This document shows positions 5,902 to 20,473 of a stretch of DNA of 64,000 nucleotides, piece after piece; the stretch's first letter is position 1; each line of letters begins with the position of its first letter. This DNA comes from a virus: positions 62,001 through 126,000 of the IMG/VR virus record IMGVR_UViG_3300042939_000736; one strand, written 5' to 3'. The position numbers and the translations under genes are program-made. Under the pieces are notes generated by a model. The model was not told the DNA's origin and ran no database searches. It saw nothing but the letters and a program-made list of their open reading frames with translations.

Positions 5902-8034
5902 TTATTGGGTAATAAGTTGATCAAGATTTTTTTTATAAAATTTAATAATTTCATTAATATTTTCAGATTGACCTAATTCACGTAGTTTATTTTTGTAGTA
6001 ATCTATTCTTTCTTTGTAATATTCAATTTCTTTATCCACATCCCTCACCAATTTAGGTTTTGATTCAGATTTAGTAGGTTCTAAAATTACATCTAATGAA
6101 AGGTTTGTACTTATAGGATTTTCATAATAAATGACAAAAAACTTAGGAAACGTAGATGGATTTGCAACAGTTTGTATTCTTGTGTAGTCATTTCTGAACA
6201 TAATGTATTTTTCATTAGGTCTGTCCACATATAATATAACGTCAACATTATCTTCTTTATATTTTGTGTGGTTATGCCAAGAAGGTACTTTGTAATAATA
6301 ACCTCTTTCAGACCCAATTTTTTCGACCTTACTAACGTCAACTGGTTTTACTTGAACAAAGTATGAAGTGTTTTCAATTATCAAATCGAAGTCTTGACCA
6401 AGTTTTCTATCTCTTATATCACCAGCACATCTTTCTTTAATTTGCCAAGTCATACCTTCTTCTTGTGGGTTAAGTTTGAAAGATTGTATTAAAACTGATT
6501 TGGCATAGTTTTCATTTTCCCTACCATCTATTATAGTTTGGCTATTCAAATTTACTAACCGTTCAGTAAATCTCCCATCGTTACCAACAAGGTCATCAAT
6601 ATTATTCATAATCCAAATCCTAAAATTTTCCAAACCATCAGTTTCTTCGACCCATATTTTTTGGATTTCTTTGTGTACCGCACTGTTAGTGTCAAATCTA
6701 TTTATAATAGACCAATTTCCTAAACCACCATAATTTTCTTCTGTAAATCTACCACCTATTATTCCATCTTCAGTTTGACATTCATCAGTTTGTATTTTAC
6801 CTAAACAACCATTCGGATGAAACTCACCTTCACAAAAAGGATATGCTTTATTTATAATAAGCCTAAAGGATTTTGGTTTGATTGGAAAAACTTCTTTACT
6901 TTCATTTAAAACTTTTTTACGAACTGTAGATTCTTTTAAAGTTTTTTTTTCAATTTTTTTCTTATACAGATCGTTAACAAAGTCCCAATTTACGTGGTTC
7001 CAAAATTTTTTGATATAATCATCTTTTTTGTTTTGGTATTTCAAATAGTACGCGTGTTCCCAAAGATCTAATCCTAAAAGCGGATAACCACCATCTTTAA
7101 CAATATTCATTAATGGGTTGTCTTGATTTGGTGTGGACAATATTTTTAATTTTTTGTTCTTTCCTATCACTAACCAAACCCATCCAGATCCAAATCGTTT
7201 TTTTGCTTCTTCATTAAATTGGTCCTTCATTTTTTTTACATTACCAAAATCTTCGGTAATCTTATTGAAGATTTCATCTTTTGGTATTTGTTTTTTTGGT
7301 GACAACATTTTCCAAAATAAAGCGTGGTTAAAGGCTCCCCCTGCGTTATTTCTTACCGAGTCGTCAAATTTATTTATAGATATTATTATATCTTCTAAAT
7401 CCATTTCCCCTTCTTTATTTTTTAACGCATCATTAAGTTTTTTTACATATCCTTTATAATGTTTATTATAATGTATGTTCATAGTCTTAGGATCTACAAA
7501 CTGTTTCATTGCGGAATATGAATACGGGAGTTTTTCTATACCAATTTTTTTCATTTCCAAAATGAAGTTTTCTTGGATGTTGAATTTATCTTGAATAAGA
7601 ATCTTTTCTTCCAATAATTGAATTTTGTCTTGGATTGGTTTCAATCCTTCAAAAATAATATTTTCTAAATCAGGATTTTCTTTTTCAAAAGTTTTAATAA
7701 GTGAACCTGCCAAAGAATTGGCTTCGTCTTCGTTTTGACCACCAATATCAGGTCCTCTTTTTCTACCTAAAACATTTCTTTGATGACTATGAACCCATTC
7801 GTGTGCTAATGTTCTAAGAATATCTCTGTTCATTCTATTATTTACTAAAATTTTGATTCCCTTTTCTTTGTGTTGACTTCCTGTGGTCATTCTACCTTCA
7901 CGTTGTCCCAACAGATGAATTACTAAGTCATCTTTTAGTGGATACTCTTTTTGTAAAAACTTACAAAAAGTTTTAAGTAGATCTTTTTCTTGCTTGCTTA
8001 TGTCTGAATTTATATTTTTGAAAGTAACGTTCAT
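5902..8034 (-). CDS. Three-domain fusion: zincin-like peptidase, Fe/Mn superoxide dismutase, PD-(D/E)XK-like nuclease
   Basis: A 710-residue protein with three distinct parts. Residues 1-130 hold a zincin signature, TLAHEWVH (H78, E79, H82), in a small metallopeptidase-like domain. Residues about 165-360 are a complete Fe/Mn superoxide dismutase: LPYSYSAMKQF start, ligands H188 (MNIH), H237 (NHALFW), D323 and H327 (DLWEHAYY), gatekeeper-type Tyr at 196, and the GSGWVWLV strand. All four metal ligands are kept, so dismutation of superoxide is likely. Residues about 380-655 have a Cys-bearing segment (FCEGEFHPNGC, then DECQTEDG) and a QDFDLII...FVQVKP core (D548/D550, Q561, K563) like PD-(D/E)XK nucleases with Q in place of E. 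The C-terminus is a charged coiled coil. Each domain is recognisable alone; the joint function is unknown. A LNES site between domains 2 and 3 could be a processing site. Preceded by a TATTTAT element and an upstream terminator, so probably its own unit. Confidence 0.85.
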   Translation of the reverse strand: MNVTFKNINSDISKQEKDLLKTFCKFLQKEYPLKDDLVIHLLGQREGRMTTGSQHKEKGIKILVNNRMNRDILRTLAHEWVHSHQRNVLGRKRGPDIGGQNEDEANSLAGSLIKTFEKENPDLENIIFEGLKPIQDKIQLLEEKILIQDKFNIQENFILEMKKIGIEKLPYSYSAMKQFVDPKTMNIHYNKHYKGYVKKLNDALKNKEGEMDLEDIIISINKFDDSVRNNAGGAFNHALFWKMLSPKKQIPKDEIFNKITEDFGNVKKMKDQFNEEAKKRFGSGWVWLVIGKNKKLKILSTPNQDNPLMNIVKDGGYPLLGLDLWEHAYYLKYQNKKDDYIKKFWNHVNWDFVNDLYKKKIEKKTLKESTVRKKVLNESKEVFPIKPKSFRLIINKAYPFCEGEFHPNGCLGKIQTDECQTEDGIIGGRFTEENYGGLGNWSIINRFDTNSAVHKEIQKIWVEETDGLENFRIWIMNNIDDLVGNDGRFTERLVNLNSQTIIDGRENENYAKSVLIQSFKLNPQEEGMTWQIKERCAGDIRDRKLGQDFDLIIENTSYFVQVKPVDVSKVEKIGSERGYYYKVPSWHNHTKYKEDNVDVILYVDRPNEKYIMFRNDYTRIQTVANPSTFPKFFVIYYENPISTNLSLDVILEPTKSESKPKLVRDVDKEIEYYKERIDYYKNKLRELGQSENINEIIKFYKKNLDQLITQ

Positions 8035-12586: not shown

Positions 12587-15500
12587 ATGGCAACTAACAG
12601 TAAAATTTTCGTTTCACCTGGTGTCTATACTTCTGAAGTAGATTTAAGTTTTGTGGCACAAAGCGTTGGTGTTACAACTTTAGGTATTGTCGGAGAAACA
12701 CTTAAAGGTCCGGCCTTCGAACCTATTTTTATTAAAAACTATGATGAGTTCCAATCTTACTTTGGTCCTACTTCACCTGAAAAATTTGTAAATACTCAAA
12801 TTCCTAAATATGAAGCGGCATACATCGCCAAATCATATTTACAACAATCTAATCAATTATTTGTAACTAGAGTTTTAGGTTTATCGGGATATGATGCGGG
12901 TCCTTCTTGGTCAATAATTACAAGCGCAAACTTAGATCCTTCCACTTTGGCACCTTATTGTTTGAGTTCAGTAACAATAGATTGTCAGGATGTTTGTGTG
13001 TCAGCTAAGACATTACCTTTTCAAGTGGCATTTACAGGTTGTACTAACTCACCAAGTTCTGTTTCTTTCGGAGCCTTTCCTGCAGAAATAGAAGCGTTGT
13101 TAACATCACAATACGAACAGTTCAACGGTAATACTTCGACTTTATTAGAAGATTTACAGTTTTTTACATATCAAAGAATTTTAAATCCTCTTTCTCAAAA
13201 TACATCTATTGCTTACTTCGGTACTATTGATGGTGATGATTATGACATGTTGTCAAGTGGATATACAGCTTCTACAAATGTGTTTAATGTACCATCACCT
13301 TCTAGTAACTTAACAAACTTCTTATCACCATTTAATGATACTTGGTACTATGCTTTGTTTGAAAACACAGGAAATAGTAATTATTCGGGTTATTCATTTT
13401 GGTCTGTTGTTTCAGGGTTAACATCAATTAATCCAATAACTACAACTACAATTCCTCCAACAACTACGTCAACGACTACAAATCCTTGTATAACACCAAC
13501 ACCTGTGGTTCCTACTACAACAACTACTACTACTGTTGTTGATTGTTACTCAGGAACAGTTATAGGTATGATATATTATTATACCGGTAATTCATACACT
13601 CTTTATGATGACATGGTTATTGCAACACTAAGATCAAGAGGTATTGCGGATTACAGCGATGACGTGAACCCAAGATATGAAATAACTGGTTTGACTGATG
13701 TTACAATGGATTGTTCAGGTCAATATTCGGGCGTATTAAAAAATCCATTTGCTAAATTTGCAATAAATGCGACTAACTACTTAGGTAACAACTTTACTTT
13801 TGTTACGTCGTTCGCAAATTCGGATTCAGAATATCTTACAAAAGTATTCGGAACAAGTAACTTTGGTAAACCAAGAAATGTGGTACCACTTTTTGTGGAA
13901 GAAAGATTCCAATCACTTTTAAGATGGGCGTATAACAAAGGTTACATACGAGGTTTAAAATGTGGTTTAATATCATTACCTGAAGCACAAAGCGAAGATC
14001 CAACATCAATTGCTTGGTACTTAGAAAAGTATCAATCACCTGAAAGTCCATGGGTTGTTTCTGAAGTTAGAGGTTCCAAAGTTTATAACTTATTTAAATT
14101 TTACACAATTTCTGACGGGAACAGTGCCAACACAGAAGTTAAAATATCTATATCTGATATATCTTTCGCAAATGAAACATTTACAGTTTTAATTCGTGAT
14201 TACTACGATACAGATTCAAATCCTGTTGTGTTAGAAAAATTCACAAACTGTACTATGAATCCAAGCGAAAATAGTTTTATAGCCAAAAAAATTGGTACTT
14301 TGGACGGTGAGTTTGAATTGAAATCAAGATATGTAATGGTTGAAATGAATGAAGACGCACCAATAGATTCATTACCTTGTGGATTTGAAGGATATAATTT
14401 CAGAGAATATGCAGGAGCAAAATCACCATTCCCTATAATTAAAACTAAATATGATTACCCAGGTGAGTTAGTTTTCAATCCACCTTTTGGTACACCATCA
14501 GGTACAGACGATGCTGGATTATCATCAGGTGATAATATAAGAAAAACTTTCTTAGGGTTTTCTACAAGTGCCGATTACGGTTATGACCCAAGTTTCTTCG
14601 AATATAAAGGTAAAAGAAATCCTTCAAACATATGTTTTGCAACTGAATCATCTCCTTGGTTATATAGAACTAAAGGGTTCCACATGGACAAAAACGCAAG
14701 TGGTATTACAATTGCTAACGTTTTTGCAACAAGTGGCACTCCTCGTTTCTACGTAGGTGATGCGTCTTTCAGTTCTGAACCTACTGTTGAAACAAACCCT
14801 TACTACCGTTTATTTGCTCGTAAATTTACTTTACTTGTACAAGGTGGATTCGATGGTTGGGATATCTACAGAGAAAGAAGAACAAACGCAGATAAATACC
14901 AATTAGGTAGAACTGGTTACTTAAATGGGGCTTGTGCAACAACAAGATACCCTTCAGCAGTTGGTTGGGGAGCGTTTAAACAAATTACTGTTGGTGACGG
15001 TACAAGAGAATACGCAAACACTGACTATTACGCTTACTTACTTGGTATCAGAACTTTTGCTAATCCTGAAGCGGTTAATATAAATGTATTTGTTACACCA
15101 GGAATTGACTATGTTAACAACAGTGACTTAGTAGAAGATACAATAGATATGATAGAAAACGAAAGAGCGGATTCTTTGTATATAACAACTACACCTGACT
15201 ACAATTTGTTATTACCTACCACAACTGGTGTAGATGGTTTGATTTATCCACAAGAAGCGGTTGATAATCTTGATGGTACAGGAATCGATTCTAACTATAC
15301 CGCCACTTACTATCCGTGGGTGTTAACAAGAGATAGTGTAAATAACACACAAATTTATCTACCACCAACGGCTGAAGTAACCAGAAATTTAGCATTAACA
15401 GACAACATTGCGTTTCCTTGGTTTGCTGCGGCGGGTTATACTCGTGGTATTGTAAACGCTATCAAAGCTCGTAAGAAGTTGACTCAAGAAGACAGAGATG

Positions 15501-15910
15501 TTCTTTATCTTGGTAGAATCAACCCTATTGCTACATTCTCAGATGTGGGTACAGTAATATGGGGTAATAAAACCCTACAAGTAAGACAGTCAGCACTTGA
15601 TAGAATAAACGTTCGAAGATTATTGTTACAAGCACGTAAGTTAATTTCGGCAGTTTCAGTAAGATTATTGTTTGATCAGAACGATGAAAAAGTAAGACAA
15701 GATTTCCTAAATGCGGTAAATCCAATATTAGATGGTATCAGAAGGGATAGGGGTCTTTATGACTTTAGAGTTACCGTATCAAATGACACGGCTGATCTAG
15801 ATAGAAATCAGATGACTGGTAAGATATATATCAAACCAACAAGATCACTAGAATTTATAGATATTACATTCTACATTACACCAACAGGTGCTTCTTTCGA
15901 AGATGTATGA
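12587..15910 (+). CDS. 18: Tail sheath protein (T4 gp18-like) with Thr-rich insertion
   Basis: A 1107-residue contractile sheath subunit, much longer than T4 gp18 (659). The N-terminus has the sheath signature FVSPGVYTSEVDLS, followed by the first domain (GIVGETLKGPAF). The C-terminal domain is typical: AFPWFAAAGYTRGIV, then INPIATFSDVGTVIWGNKTL and RRLLLQARKLI. The extra length is an insertion in the middle. Residues about 283-318 are a striking low-complexity stretch: two poly-Thr runs around a short Pro/Cys segment (ITTTTIPPTTTSTTTNPC, then VPTTTTTTTVVDC), which would be exposed on the outside of the tail and flanked by Cys residues. It has its own promoter element and a strong terminator. 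Confidence 0.95.
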   Translation: MATNSKIFVSPGVYTSEVDLSFVAQSVGVTTLGIVGETLKGPAFEPIFIKNYDEFQSYFGPTSPEKFVNTQIPKYEAAYIAKSYLQQSNQLFVTRVLGLSGYDAGPSWSIITSANLDPSTLAPYCLSSVTIDCQDVCVSAKTLPFQVAFTGCTNSPSSVSFGAFPAEIEALLTSQYEQFNGNTSTLLEDLQFFTYQRILNPLSQNTSIAYFGTIDGDDYDMLSSGYTASTNVFNVPSPSSNLTNFLSPFNDTWYYALFENTGNSNYSGYSFWSVVSGLTSINPITTTTIPPTTTSTTTNPCITPTPVVPTTTTTTTVVDCYSGTVIGMIYYYTGNSYTLYDDMVIATLRSRGIADYSDDVNPRYEITGLTDVTMDCSGQYSGVLKNPFAKFAINATNYLGNNFTFVTSFANSDSEYLTKVFGTSNFGKPRNVVPLFVEERFQSLLRWAYNKGYIRGLKCGLISLPEAQSEDPTSIAWYLEKYQSPESPWVVSEVRGSKVYNLFKFYTISDGNSANTEVKISISDISFANETFTVLIRDYYDTDSNPVVLEKFTNCTMNPSENSFIAKKIGTLDGEFELKSRYVMVEMNEDAPIDSLPCGFEGYNFREYAGAKSPFPIIKTKYDYPGELVFNPPFGTPSGTDDAGLSSGDNIRKTFLGFSTSADYGYDPSFFEYKGKRNPSNICFATESSPWLYRTKGFHMDKNASGITIANVFATSGTPRFYVGDASFSSEPTVETNPYYRLFARKFTLLVQGGFDGWDIYRERRTNADKYQLGRTGYLNGACATTRYPSAVGWGAFKQITVGDGTREYANTDYYAYLLGIRTFANPEAVNINVFVTPGIDYVNNSDLVEDTIDMIENERADSLYITTTPDYNLLLPTTTGVDGLIYPQEAVDNLDGTGIDSNYTATYYPWVLTRDSVNNTQIYLPPTAEVTRNLALTDNIAFPWFAAAGYTRGIVNAIKARKKLTQEDRDVLYLGRINPIATFSDVGTVIWGNKTLQVRQSALDRINVRRLLLQARKLISAVSVRLLFDQNDEKVRQDFLNAVNPILDGIRRDRGLYDFRVTVSNDTADLDRNQMTGKIYIKPTRSLEFIDITFYITPTGASFEDV

Positions 15911-16966: not shown

Positions 16967-17455
16967 ATGGCTGATCTTTTAATGAAAATGCCGATACCGT
17001 ATGAACCAAAAAAACAGAATAGGTTTATTCTACGGTTTCCAACTGATTTAGGAATTAATGAATGGTTTGTACAAACCGCATCAAGACCTAAAATAACTAT
17101 TACATCAAACACAATCAAATTTTTGAACACTGAAACATACGTAGCGGGTTCTTTTAACTGGGGTGATATAAGTGTAAAAATGTTAGACCCTATTGGACCA
17201 TCAAATGCTCAGGCGGTTATGGAATGGGTACGATTAGTTGCCGAATCAGTTACAGGTCGTATGGGTTACGCCGCGGGTTATAAAAGAAACGTTGACTTGG
17301 AAATGTTAGACCCAACAGGTGTTGTTATCGAAAGATGGATATTAGTTAATGCATTTCCAATAAGTGCTGACTTTGGTTCAGTCGGATACGGAACTGATAG
17401 TCCTACTGAAATTACAATGAACCTAAAAATGGACAGAGCAATTTTAGTTTATTAA
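16967..17455 (+). CDS. 19: Tail tube protein (T4 gp19-like)
   Basis: A 162-residue protein, the same size as T4 gp19 (163). The N-terminus YEPKKQNRFILRFPTD is the classical tube-protein opening; then KITITSNTIKFLNTETYVAG, GDISVKMLDPIGPSNAQAV and GYKRNVDLEMLDPTGVVIE show the paired beta sheets of the tube subunit with the loop that contacts the next ring. It polymerises as hexameric rings on the baseplate, inside the sheath. It is followed by a terminator (17483-17520), which would give it high independent expression. Confidence 0.92.
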   Translation: MADLLMKMPIPYEPKKQNRFILRFPTDLGINEWFVQTASRPKITITSNTIKFLNTETYVAGSFNWGDISVKMLDPIGPSNAQAVMEWVRLVAESVTGRMGYAAGYKRNVDLEMLDPTGVVIERWILVNAFPISADFGSVGYGTDSPTEITMNLKMDRAILVY

Positions 17456-17482: not shown

Positions 17483-17520
17483 AAATCCATATTGTCAAGT
17501 ACAGTATGGATTTTTATTTA
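17483..17520 (+). terminator. Intrinsic terminator after the tube gene
   Basis: Stem AAATCCATA/TATGGATTT (17483-17491 with 17505-17513) and a T-rich 3' side. It lies between the abundant tube gene and the chaperone gene. Confidence 0.8.
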
Positions 17521-17558: not shown

Positions 17559-18314
17559 ATGGAAAACGAAATACTTTACGGTCAAATGAATTTTACATTA
17601 CCACACGATGTGGTAGAATTACCATCTAAAGGTCTTTATTATAAAAGTAAAAAATCAAGTATTAAGGTAGGTTACTTAAATGCCGCAGATGAAGATATTT
17701 TATCATCAGGTATTAAAAACAATAATTTGTTAATTACCCTTTTAAGAAACAAAATTTATGAACCTGATTTGAAACCAGAAGAATTATTGGATGGTGATAT
17801 TGAAGCGATTTTAATTTTTTTAAGAAACACATCTTTTGGCCCTGAATATACTTTGAATTTGACGGACCCATTAACAGGTAATTTATTTCAACACACTTTT
17901 ATTTTGGACGAAATAAATTTTAAAAGTCCAAAAAATAAACCAAATGATGATGGAACATTTACTGCCATTTTACCTAGAAGTAATGCTAACGTAAAATTAA
18001 AACTGTTAAACTTGGGTGATAAAAGTAAGATAACAAATCAAGAATCAAGTTACCCAAAAGGTAGAGTTGCTCCTACTACATTGTGGACTTTACAAGAACA
18101 AATTGTTGAATTAAATGGGGATACCGACAAAGGTAAAATTATTGAATTTGTTCAGAATATGCCGATAATGGATTCCAAGTATATCAAAAAATTTATTTCA
18201 GAAAACGAACCTGGTTTAGACTTAAAAGTAAATGCAATAGCCCCGTCAGGAGAAAACGTGTCGACCTCGATAACGTTTGGGGTTGAATTTTTTCGCCCTT
18301 TCTTCGACATATAA
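17559..18314 (+). CDS. Tail assembly chaperone / hub assembly protein (gp26-like), frame-0 product
   Basis: A 251-residue protein lying between the tube and tape-measure genes, the usual place of tail assembly chaperones. The opening VVELPSKGLYYKSKKSSI and the following LNAADEDILSS resemble the LPSKG-type family of phage proteins related to T4 gp26 and to tail chaperones of large myophages. A helical segment (LLDGDIEAILIFLRN) follows. Frame 0 stops at 18312 just after a T6 run, and an overlapping coding frame continues for about 50 codons to 18450 (see next entry). Two products, one extended at the C-terminus, are therefore expected, as in many tail chaperones. Chaperone function is inferred from position and from the frameshift architecture. 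Confidence 0.7.
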   Translation: MENEILYGQMNFTLPHDVVELPSKGLYYKSKKSSIKVGYLNAADEDILSSGIKNNNLLITLLRNKIYEPDLKPEELLDGDIEAILIFLRNTSFGPEYTLNLTDPLTGNLFQHTFILDEINFKSPKNKPNDDGTFTAILPRSNANVKLKLLNLGDKSKITNQESSYPKGRVAPTTLWTLQEQIVELNGDTDKGKIIEFVQNMPIMDSKYIKKFISENEPGLDLKVNAIAPSGENVSTSITFGVEFFRPFFDI

Positions 18315-18450
18315 ACAATATATAATTGATCAATATATATTTCTTGCTAAATTTTTAAGAATACCATATTCGGATTTTTGGAAAATACCTACATACCAAA
18401 GAAACTACATAATCGATAAGGTCATTGAAATGAACAACCCAAAACAATAA
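18295..18450 (+). CDS. Frameshifted extension of the tail chaperone (+1 / -2 frame)
   Basis: The frame offset by +1 from the chaperone gene is open from 18274 to the TAA at 18448-18450 and encodes a well-formed protein end: FLRIPYSDFWKIPTYQ, then RNYIIDKVIEMN. It has no ATG until near its end, so it is probably reached by ribosomal frameshifting. At 18288-18296 the sequence GAA TTT TTT CGC offers a slip: tRNA-Phe could move +1 from TTT to TTC before a rare-looking CGC, or -2 on the T6 run; both give the same frame. The fused product would be about 296 residues. A sequencing error is the alternative. Confidence 0.65.
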   Translation, partial: ALSSTYKQYIIDQYIFLAKFLRIPYSDFWKIPTYQRNYIIDKVIEMNNPKQ

Positions 18451-18478: not shown

Positions 18479-20473
18479 ATGGTTGTATCAGGAACAACTT
18501 TTGGTACAGATACTCTTAAAAACGTATCTGAAGCTTTAAAAAAGAATATCACCGGTATTCAAGCAATGGTTGAAGACATAGACAAACAGTTTTCAACGCT
18601 AGCAAAAACTATAGGGGCAGGAAGGGAACAGGCGTTTTTACTAAAACAAACACTTACAGAAGGTCTTACAGAAATAACAAGATTAGGAGGTAGTGTTGCT
18701 GATATAGTAAAACAACAAGAAGCTCTTTTTGCTACATTTGGAACACAACTAGTTCTTAATAAGAATGCAACAGATGAATTGTTTGCGACAACACAGGCAA
18801 CTGGTATAGAATCAAAAGACTTATTTACAAGTTACGCTAATCTAGGAAAATCAATTTACGAAGCTAATTCTGAAATGGCATCAATAATGGAAAATGCTAA
18901 CCTAATTGGTGTTAACGCAAAAGAAGTTGCAAAGTCGGTTAATGCTAACATGTCGGCACTTTCTAAAATTAACTTTAAAGATGGTGTCATGGGATTAGCC
19001 GACATGGCAGCTAAATCCGCGATGTTACGTGTAGATATGTCTACAGCACTTAAATCTGCTGAAGATTTATACAAACCAGAAAAGGCACAGTCATTTGTCA
19101 ATACTTTACAACGATTGGGGGCAACAGGATCTTCAGAATTAATGAACGTTGAAAGAGTCAGATTTTTAGCAAGAAATGAACCGGCAAAGTTACAAGAAGA
19201 AATTGCTAAGATGGCATCTAAATTTGTTGACGAAACGGGTAAAATGTCTGCAATTGGAATGGACTTCTTAAAGGAAATTGCTTCTGAGTCGGGTTACAGT
19301 GCGGATGAGTTATCAAAAATGGGTATATCAATGTCTCAGTTGAAAGACAAACAAGATCTTATCAATCAAACCGGACTACAATTAACCGATCCAAAAGAAA
19401 TGGAAAAACTTACCAATTTACTTACAAAAGGTAAAGATGGTAAATTTGAAGTAACTTATGAACAAGATGGTCAACAGGTAACAAAGGCTCTTGAAGATAT
19501 GAATTCTTACGAGAGAGATCAACTTCAGAAATTTCTTCAGTCACAAAATGATCAAATTAAAAATACATTCCAAGCAAAACCAGGTGAAGACAAAAATTTA
19601 GTAAAACTTATAGAGCAACAGATGGATGTAAATACAAAATTTACACAAGCCATAAAAGCTTTAGAAACTGTAATACCATCACAAATTGCAGGTTCAAAGA
19701 CCGGAGAAAAAATGATACAAAGTATCATCGACAACACAAATAAACTTTCAACCACTGCACTTACAAAATTAGATGAGTTAAGCGATGAAGCGGGAAAGGC
19801 CGTAGACATGAAAATCAAAATAATAGAAAGTGCGGTAGACGCTATGAAACCAACACTCCAAACAGTTGTTGATACTATGGAAACTTTAGCTACCAATACC
19901 ATGCCAAGTCTTACAAGCGCAGCAAACAGATTTACAACAGCTCTTGGTAACGTGGGGACCTTTTTGACCAATACTTTTAAATTAGATGACTTTGTGAGTT
20001 TACCAGGGAACGACAGATTAATCATGGGTCCTGAAGGTTCTATAGGTAGAATAAATAGTAATGATACAATAATATCATCAACTGATGGACCAAAAACTGA
20101 AGAAGAAGTTGCTAAAATGATGGAATTAATTAAATCACCACAAACACCATTAGTTTCTTCGCCAATAGAAACAAAACCAATCTTAACTTCAGAAAATTTG
20201 GGAACTAAATCTATGATGGAAATAGAAAGAGAAAAGGCCTTGACGGATATAATGATGTCTCAAACTCCCAAAACAAGTGAAACACCAACAGAAATTAAAA
20301 CCACAAATGATATCAATCATAAATTAGACATTGTTGTTGATCTAAAAAACGTACCAACTAACATCAATCAAAATGAATTGAAAGGGGTTATTGAAAACGT
20401 TGTGTTGAAACCTGAATTTGTTAATAACATCAAAATGGGATTAGAAAAAATTAAAGGTGTTAATTACTATTAA
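18479..20473 (+). CDS. Tail tape measure protein
   Basis: A 664-residue, largely helical protein. Two parts can be seen: a long N-terminal helical region (residues 1-450) with the pattern of tape measure proteins (AREQAFLLKQTLTEGLTEIT, repeated Ala/Leu/Lys heptads, LADMAAKSAMLRVDMSTALK) and a C-terminal region with a Gly/Pro linker (about 500-600) before a short beta tail. The position after tube and chaperone genes and before the hub and baseplate genes supports the call. It fixes tail length and lies inside the tube before DNA passage. At 664 residues it would specify a tail of about 100 nm at the usual ratio of about 1.5 angstrom per residue, which is an estimate only. Confidence 0.8.
   Translation: MVVSGTTFGTDTLKNVSEALKKNITGIQAMVEDIDKQFSTLAKTIGAGREQAFLLKQTLTEGLTEITRLGGSVADIVKQQEALFATFGTQLVLNKNATDELFATTQATGIESKDLFTSYANLGKSIYEANSEMASIMENANLIGVNAKEVAKSVNANMSALSKINFKDGVMGLADMAAKSAMLRVDMSTALKSAEDLYKPEKAQSFVNTLQRLGATGSSELMNVERVRFLARNEPAKLQEEIAKMASKFVDETGKMSAIGMDFLKEIASESGYSADELSKMGISMSQLKDKQDLINQTGLQLTDPKEMEKLTNLLTKGKDGKFEVTYEQDGQQVTKALEDMNSYERDQLQKFLQSQNDQIKNTFQAKPGEDKNLVKLIEQQMDVNTKFTQAIKALETVIPSQIAGSKTGEKMIQSIIDNTNKLSTTALTKLDELSDEAGKAVDMKIKIIESAVDAMKPTLQTVVDTMETLATNTMPSLTSAANRFTTALGNVGTFLTNTFKLDDFVSLPGNDRLIMGPEGSIGRINSNDTIISSTDGPKTEEEVAKMMELIKSPQTPLVSSPIETKPILTSENLGTKSMMEIEREKALTDIMMSQTPKTSETPTEIKTTNDINHKLDIVVDLKNVPTNINQNELKGVIENVVLKPEFVNNIKMGLEKIKGVNYY

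Follow-up and report, generated by a model that had tools for sequence, protein, structure and literature searches.

Sequence comparison makes it very probable that a large bacterial virus derives two forms of its tail chaperone from one gene, with some ribosomes skipping a base at UUU_CGC. The gene lies in a 64,000-nucleotide stretch of viral DNA (the window; positions 62001-126000 in a virus record of 290.7 kb), and we regard it as highly probable that it yields a short and a long chaperone through a +1 slip from UUU to UUC, with an upstream RNA hairpin favouring that slip. Frameshifted tail chaperones are already known, as are +1 shifts, and UUU_CGN is known as a shift site from eukaryotic viruses (PMC5052127). 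What appears to be new, as far as our searches reached, is a predicted +1 shift at UUU_CGN in the T4-type chaperone family, coupled with a conserved hairpin 5' of the site.

The chaperone gene and its second frame

The features of the locus are collected in Table 1. The genes follow the order tail sheath (12587-15910), tail tube, chaperone (17559-18314) and putative tape measure (from 18479), in keeping with the initial annotation, which had placed the chaperone between tube and tape-measure genes. The tube assignment rests on a family match, and that of the tape measure on position and synteny, as searches of phrog and Pfam returned no family match for the product of 18479..20473. The short chaperone scores 33.5 bits against PF12322 (curated cut-off 24.5) and also matches phrog_150 (baseplate hub; E 4.7e-10). 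Several neighbouring features deserve mention in their own right. The tail sheath (+ strand) is very long, at 1107 aa, and contains an internal Thr-rich stretch. The gap between the tail tube and chaperone genes holds a 13-pair terminator-like hairpin with a T-rich tail (17483-17513, +), which may set the ratio of both. Farther away, 5902-8034 (-) encodes a protein of 710 aa in which the two Fe/Mn superoxide dismutase domains (Pfam E 1.5e-39 and 1.2e-20) are embedded between other sequence, which is unusual for a phage.

Table 1. Positions of the chaperone gene, its neighbours and the elements of the proposed recoding signal in the window
Feature	Position	Strand	Basis or conservation
Tail tube protein (gp19-like)	16967..17455	+	phrog_4542 E 3.3e-22
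Short chaperone (TAC-N), T4 gp26/gp51-type, 251 aa	17559..18314	+	PF12322 E 4.6e-8, phrog_150
Outer stem, 5' arm AGCCCC	18239..18244	+	Pairs with 18279-18284
9-nt bulge GUCAGGAGA	18245..18253	+	Conserved wobble bases; GGA 118/120, TCA 93/120
Inner stem, 5' arm (AAACGU in the window)	18254..18259	+	Compensatory branches; matched-arm test
Inner stem, 3' arm ACGUUU	18273..18278	+	Covariation, as for the 5' arm
Outer stem, 3' arm GGGGUU	18279..18284	+	GGG Gly codon 118/120 vs 9.7% background
Candidate slippery P-site codon UUU, re-pairing with UUC at 18292-18294	18291..18293	+	TTT in 120/120
Candidate slow A-site codon CGC	18294..18296	+	CGN in 120/120; AGN 0
+1-frame extension, 51 aa, ALSSTYKQYIID...EMNNPKQ	18295..18450	+	pN/pS; alignment with T4 gp51 tail
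Putative tape-measure protein, 664 aa	18479..20473	+	Position; synteny with annotated tape measure in immuto, LIS04

The coordinates given in the initial annotation for the two frames proved correct. Frame 0 runs from the ATG at 17559 to a TAA at 18312-18314, its protein ending in ...GVEFFRPFFDI, and the +1 frame is open through GAA TTT TTT CGC as far as a TAA at 18448-18450; joined to the short chaperone, the extension would give a predicted long chaperone (TAC-NC) of 296 aa. To place this layout in an evolutionary context, we combined a protein search of IMG/VR, which supplied 80 relatives, with a codon-degenerate DNA pattern that is neutral among synonymous codons and retrieved 120 stretches, for a set of 120 sequences at <=90% nucleotide identity. 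The conservation of the overlap, which had been named as a check, is complete: all 120 share the layout, with the extension in the +1 frame and a post-shift length of 47-62 codons. Beyond the overlap, every relative keeps the +1 frame open; the figure for the other two frames is 1-2%. Within the extension, pN/pS is 0.19 in the +1 frame vs 0.96 and 1.67 in the others, and 56% of differences fall at third positions of the +1 frame. The extension is thus under strong purifying selection in the +1 frame, far beyond chance. A real extra or missing base, which had been named as a way to refute the frameshift, is ruled out because five other IMG/VR contigs are identical across 1200 bases around the gene and the same layout recurs in about 120 distinct relatives.

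Position and direction of the probable shift

In frame 0, the relatives follow the consensus GGG GTN GAN TTT TTT CGN CCT TTC TTC, usually followed by a stop. The second TTT and CGN are invariant among the 120, and the remaining codons nearly so (GGG 118, first TTT 117, CCT 118, TTC 119, TTC 111); upstream in the same genes, GGG makes up 9.7% of Gly codons, TTT 77% of Phe and CGN 12.8% of Arg. Dual coding can account for some of the wobble conservation 3' of the site (CCT TTC TTC), and the preference for CGN, split into CGG 48, CGT 37, CGC 32 and CGA 3, is partly forced by the requirement for C after UUU. In the window itself, the shift-site copy of CGC is the only one in 8160 codons of the large genes, and a larger sample holds 7 in 41,813 codons (the counts span the window plus 80 kb); with a codon this rare, the A site should wait.

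The initial annotation had left the slip as either +1 or -2, and the two make opposite predictions: under a +1 move (UUU to UUC) TTT is required at the second Phe codon and the first is free, and under a -2 move the reverse holds. Searching the whole viral collection, we found the first Phe codon as TTC in 52 contigs, all homologues, and no homologue in which the second is TTC or in which AGN replaces CGN. The lone match with TTC as the second Phe codon (L255) was rejected, as it is not a homologue. Scanning the bacterial genomes of the GTDB collection with the pattern, in search of a host, yielded two chance matches that lack the upstream protein context. A +1 shift at UUU_CGN is favoured because the first codon may vary, the second never does and AGN never occurs. 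Indeed, UUU followed by C, a conserved +1-re-pairing codon of the UUU_Y type, occupies the P site in 120/120.

Other routes to the same frame must nevertheless be weighed. A -2 slip, with the tRNA moving from UUU back onto UUU within the T6 run, would reach it with one extra Phe, and the run is kept in 117/120 relatives; moreover, A follows T6 in the Listeria phage LIS04, a context more favourable to -2 than to +1. The obligatory TTT, however, is the second Phe codon and not the first, and in the 52 homologous contigs reading TTC TTT CGN, which represent at least 16 distinct lineages, re-pairing two bases back would leave tRNA-Phe on UCU. This excludes a -2 slip in those lineages; in general we judge it very improbable and retain the +1 part of the original proposal. 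The same variants bear on polymerase slippage, in which RNA polymerase would delete one U on the T run and some mRNAs would then encode the long form. Most relatives do offer it a six-T run, but the TTC TTT variants have T runs of <=3 at the site and retain the extension, which excludes such slippage in those lineages, and the invariant CGN and the covarying hairpin described below would be left unexplained; this seems to us scarcely probable. Equally little weight, comparable to that of a -2 slip, falls to the extension being a separate small protein with its own start. The window contains a TTG at 18277, the only candidate start in the extension frame, and in the jumbo phage LR756511 the extension opens with an ATG that shares bases with the stop (TAATG). 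Against this, 12/120 relatives lack any ATG, GTG or TTG in the stretch that leads from the upstream stop to the conserved extension, and L-S-S is conserved in the +1 frame from the first bases of the overlap. In 8 of these 12, an in-frame TAG stands immediately 5' of the T run, so the frame change is confined to about seven codons. The claim that the extension lacks a proper start is thereby borne out, and the independent start that could have undone the proposal did not emerge in any credible form. On the strength of this comparison, a programmed frameshift in the tail chaperone, in the +1 direction, is strongly supported.

The upstream hairpin and a proposed mechanism

Wobble bases are conserved not only at the site but also 27-40 nt upstream (GCC CCG TCA GGA GAA). 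There, CCCC pairs with GGGG just 5' of the site, with a second stem between that reaches up to 10 pairs in relatives, and the 3' arm of the outer stem ends 6 nt 5' of the P-site UUU. A structure-free calculation of mutual information over all column pairs (index 0 being the first G of GGG, 18279) returned (-21,-5), (-22,-4), (-40,5) and (-19,-7) as its top pairs, all of them in the two stems. Two relatives have GGT in place of GGG, and in both the opposite arm has changed to match, C-G becoming A-U (GCACC...GGUGU in L090). For the inner stem, 51 compensatory branches were counted on a tree built from other sequence, against 6-18 for registers slid by 1-4 bases. Arms swapped between relatives gave weaker stems, at -2.7 instead of -7.2 kcal/mol for the inner (z -23) and -10.8 instead of -11.7 kcal/mol for the outer (z -7.5); such permutations leave some effect of relatedness, for which the slid registers and the tree count serve as complementary controls. 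Thirteen held-out lineages were 92% paired in the outer stem and 82% in the inner, with slid registers at <=59%. The hairpin region folds more stably than its shuffles (mean z -2.4, against -0.3 for the rest of the gene), and in the window it is the strongest local hairpin of its gene (0/110 positions as strong). Covariation and folding together support a conserved RNA hairpin just 5' of the putative shift site. The initial annotation, whose frameshift picture otherwise stands, had missed this element. Rfam offered no match, its one chance hit falling far under the cut-off, and no consistent downstream structure was found that might act as a 3' stimulator (mean z -0.15 to -0.69).

Three other functions for these bases were considered. 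The GGGG was rejected as a Shine-Dalgarno (SD)-like signal, since its compensatory changes with CCCC fit a stem arm better; it also ends 8 nt before UUU, and in a prfB-like arrangement the SD lies about 3 nt before the shift codon. The bulge GUCAGGAGA (18245-18253, +) happens to include an SD-like AGGAG. The hairpin and T run could form a weak intrinsic terminator that sets downstream expression and has no connection with frameshifting, and a terminator-like match at 18261-18286 does overlap the hairpin. We hold this to be improbable, as the outer stem and the T run lie three bases apart, a 9-nt bulge interrupts the stem, and the 52 contigs in which the T run is broken retain the hairpin. A pseudoknot, in which GGAGAAA of the bulge pairs with a downstream UUUCUUC and encloses the shift site, is unlikely, if less so than the terminator. 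Nearly all relatives could form the pairing (median -8.1 kcal/mol), but it does not covary (z -0.6), the two GGU lineages with a repaired outer stem break or weaken it, and GGA AAA variants weaken it too.

The hairpin thus remains the preferred structure, and the following course of events would accommodate it. Most ribosomes would terminate at 18312 and release the short form. A minority would behave differently: while peptidyl-tRNA-Phe occupies UUU (18291-18293) and the A site holds the rare CGC, the tRNA may move one base forward to UUC, and reading in the +1 frame would give the 296-aa form, whose extension is predicted to be a helical C-terminus. The advancing ribosome would melt the hairpin, which could then refold behind it, 6 nt away from the slipping codon at the base of the stem, and promote the forward slip, much like the internal SD duplex in prfB. 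When free mRNA is folded with its downstream sequence, a competing structure appears and the mean pairing probability of the outer stem is 0.43, not 0.95. The outer stem would therefore be free only while a ribosome covers the shift site, and the hairpin is expected mainly behind the ribosome, which is consistent with the refolding mechanism but not proof of it. Precedents are known: UUU_Ynn is prone to +1 shifting in bacteria, 5' stem-loops stimulate +1 shifting in synthetic constructs (PMC5009743), and a refolding hairpin beside the E site raises +1 and lowers -1 shifting in 70S, yeast and human systems, in the manner of an internal SD duplex (PMC3639245, PMC6321510). What the comparison of relatives establishes is the layout, the frame, the selection on the extension, the conservation of the site, the exclusion of -2 in many lineages and, through covariation, the hairpin; the occurrence and rate of slippage, the action of the hairpin and the part played by the two forms in tail assembly are inferred.

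SD motifs precede 6% of the sampled genes of this phage, with 3% expected. Given so few, a stimulator independent of the anti-SD would make sense. We lean slightly towards a broader reading, in which this is a natural, conserved +1 shift where a refolding mRNA hairpin takes the place of the SD/anti-SD duplex, possibly as the hosts rarely use the anti-SD, and in which, within the chaperone family, members that shift +1 have the hairpin and those that shift -1 lack it.

The chaperone family and known recoding systems

Far relatives of the chaperone offer several solutions that the initial annotation had likewise missed. A +1-frame extension after UUU followed by C or U occurs in six of them: Mel-JY01 (UUU_UGG), SP-15 (UUU_CAC), GXN1 (UUC_UUU_CGU), LR756508 (UUU_CUA), immuto (UUU_CUU_UGG, which might instead slip at CUU_U) and RM378 (UUU_UGG). 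In 5/6, the local hairpin 5' of the site ranks in the top 1-10% of its gene (50-nt window), which is no more than suggestive. Phage LIS04 (L265, 1501-2460) also has an unannotated +1-frame extension, at UUU_AGU after a T6 run and without an upstream hairpin; it is an unexplained exception that might use a -2 shift or another route. In KVP40 (L267) and Bellamy (L266), a canonical U_UUU_UUC precedes a -1-frame extension and the hairpin is absent, as would be expected if the hairpin opposes -1 shifting. Both extensions are annotated as separate 'hub assembly' genes. In LR756511 (L258), the overlapping ATG opens a -1-frame extension that is perhaps translated separately. The same protein pair thus seems to be made by +1 shifting, by -1 shifting, from a gene for each form and perhaps from an overlapping start. 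Corrected annotation is suggested for Mel-JY01, SP-15, immuto, GXN1, LIS04 and RM378, where the extension either lacks an annotation or stands as a hypothetical protein of its own.

Structure prediction agrees with the family assignment. An AlphaFold model of the long form of a close relative (L006; pLDDT 78) matched T4-type hub/chaperone models in BFVD (best E 5e-32; SP-15 at 4.5e-17) and has the family fold plus three C-terminal helices of lower confidence (about 63); a structure search of the PDB gave no match. The locus therefore shares with PF12322 a score above the sequence cut-off, the fold (in the L006 model) and, as read from the DNA, short and long forms. Membership would also predict binding to the tape-measure and tube proteins while the tail is assembled.

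The closest comparison is T4 itself, whose gp26 and gp51 belong to the same protein family. T4 gp26 ends at the end of PF12322, as the short form in the window does, and gp51 has 48 further residues that align with the extension; the long form is probably the counterpart of T4 gp51 and lambda gpGT, and the short form that of T4 gp26 and lambda gpG. T4, however, has two separate genes, an arrangement that PMC10885494, in its account of Vladimirov et al. (2022), gives for T4-type chaperones, whereas the window has one gene with a predicted +1 shift at UUU_CGN and a 5' hairpin. Poly-T -1 signals in T4-like TAC-N genes are credited to the same authors in a passage of PMC12846349, and the -1 site U_UUU_UUC of KVP40 and Bellamy likewise differs from the hairpin-bearing +1 site in the window. 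Lambda G/GT also pairs a short and a long chaperone beside the tape-measure gene, but shifts -1 (PMC5009743), and the likeness drawn here is one of organisation.

The shift site itself has its nearest match elsewhere. Influenza A PA-X and plant amalgaviruses share the UUU_CGN pair and the predicted move of tRNA-Phe from UUU to UUC (PMC5052127), but these are eukaryotic RNA viruses, and the relevant portion of that source describes no conserved 5' hairpin. With prfB, the window shares a +1 P-site slip, a stalled A site and an upstream duplex; prfB, however, shifts at CUU_UGA under RF2 feedback with an mRNA-rRNA duplex 3 nt upstream (PMC12421855), as opposed to UUU_CGN with an mRNA hairpin 6 nt upstream. 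Stem-loops 5' of recoding sites are described for T4 gene 60 bypassing, and a recoding review suggests from synthetic constructs that 5' mRNA structure perhaps stimulates +1 shifting (PMC5009743). The SARS-CoV attenuator and engineered constructs likewise place a hairpin near the E site, as here, with +1 shifting raised and -1 weakened (PMC3639245, PMC6321510). There the +1 effect of upstream refolding hairpins comes from test constructs; the locus in the window offers a conserved natural case, with many variants of a 5' structure at a putative +1 site.
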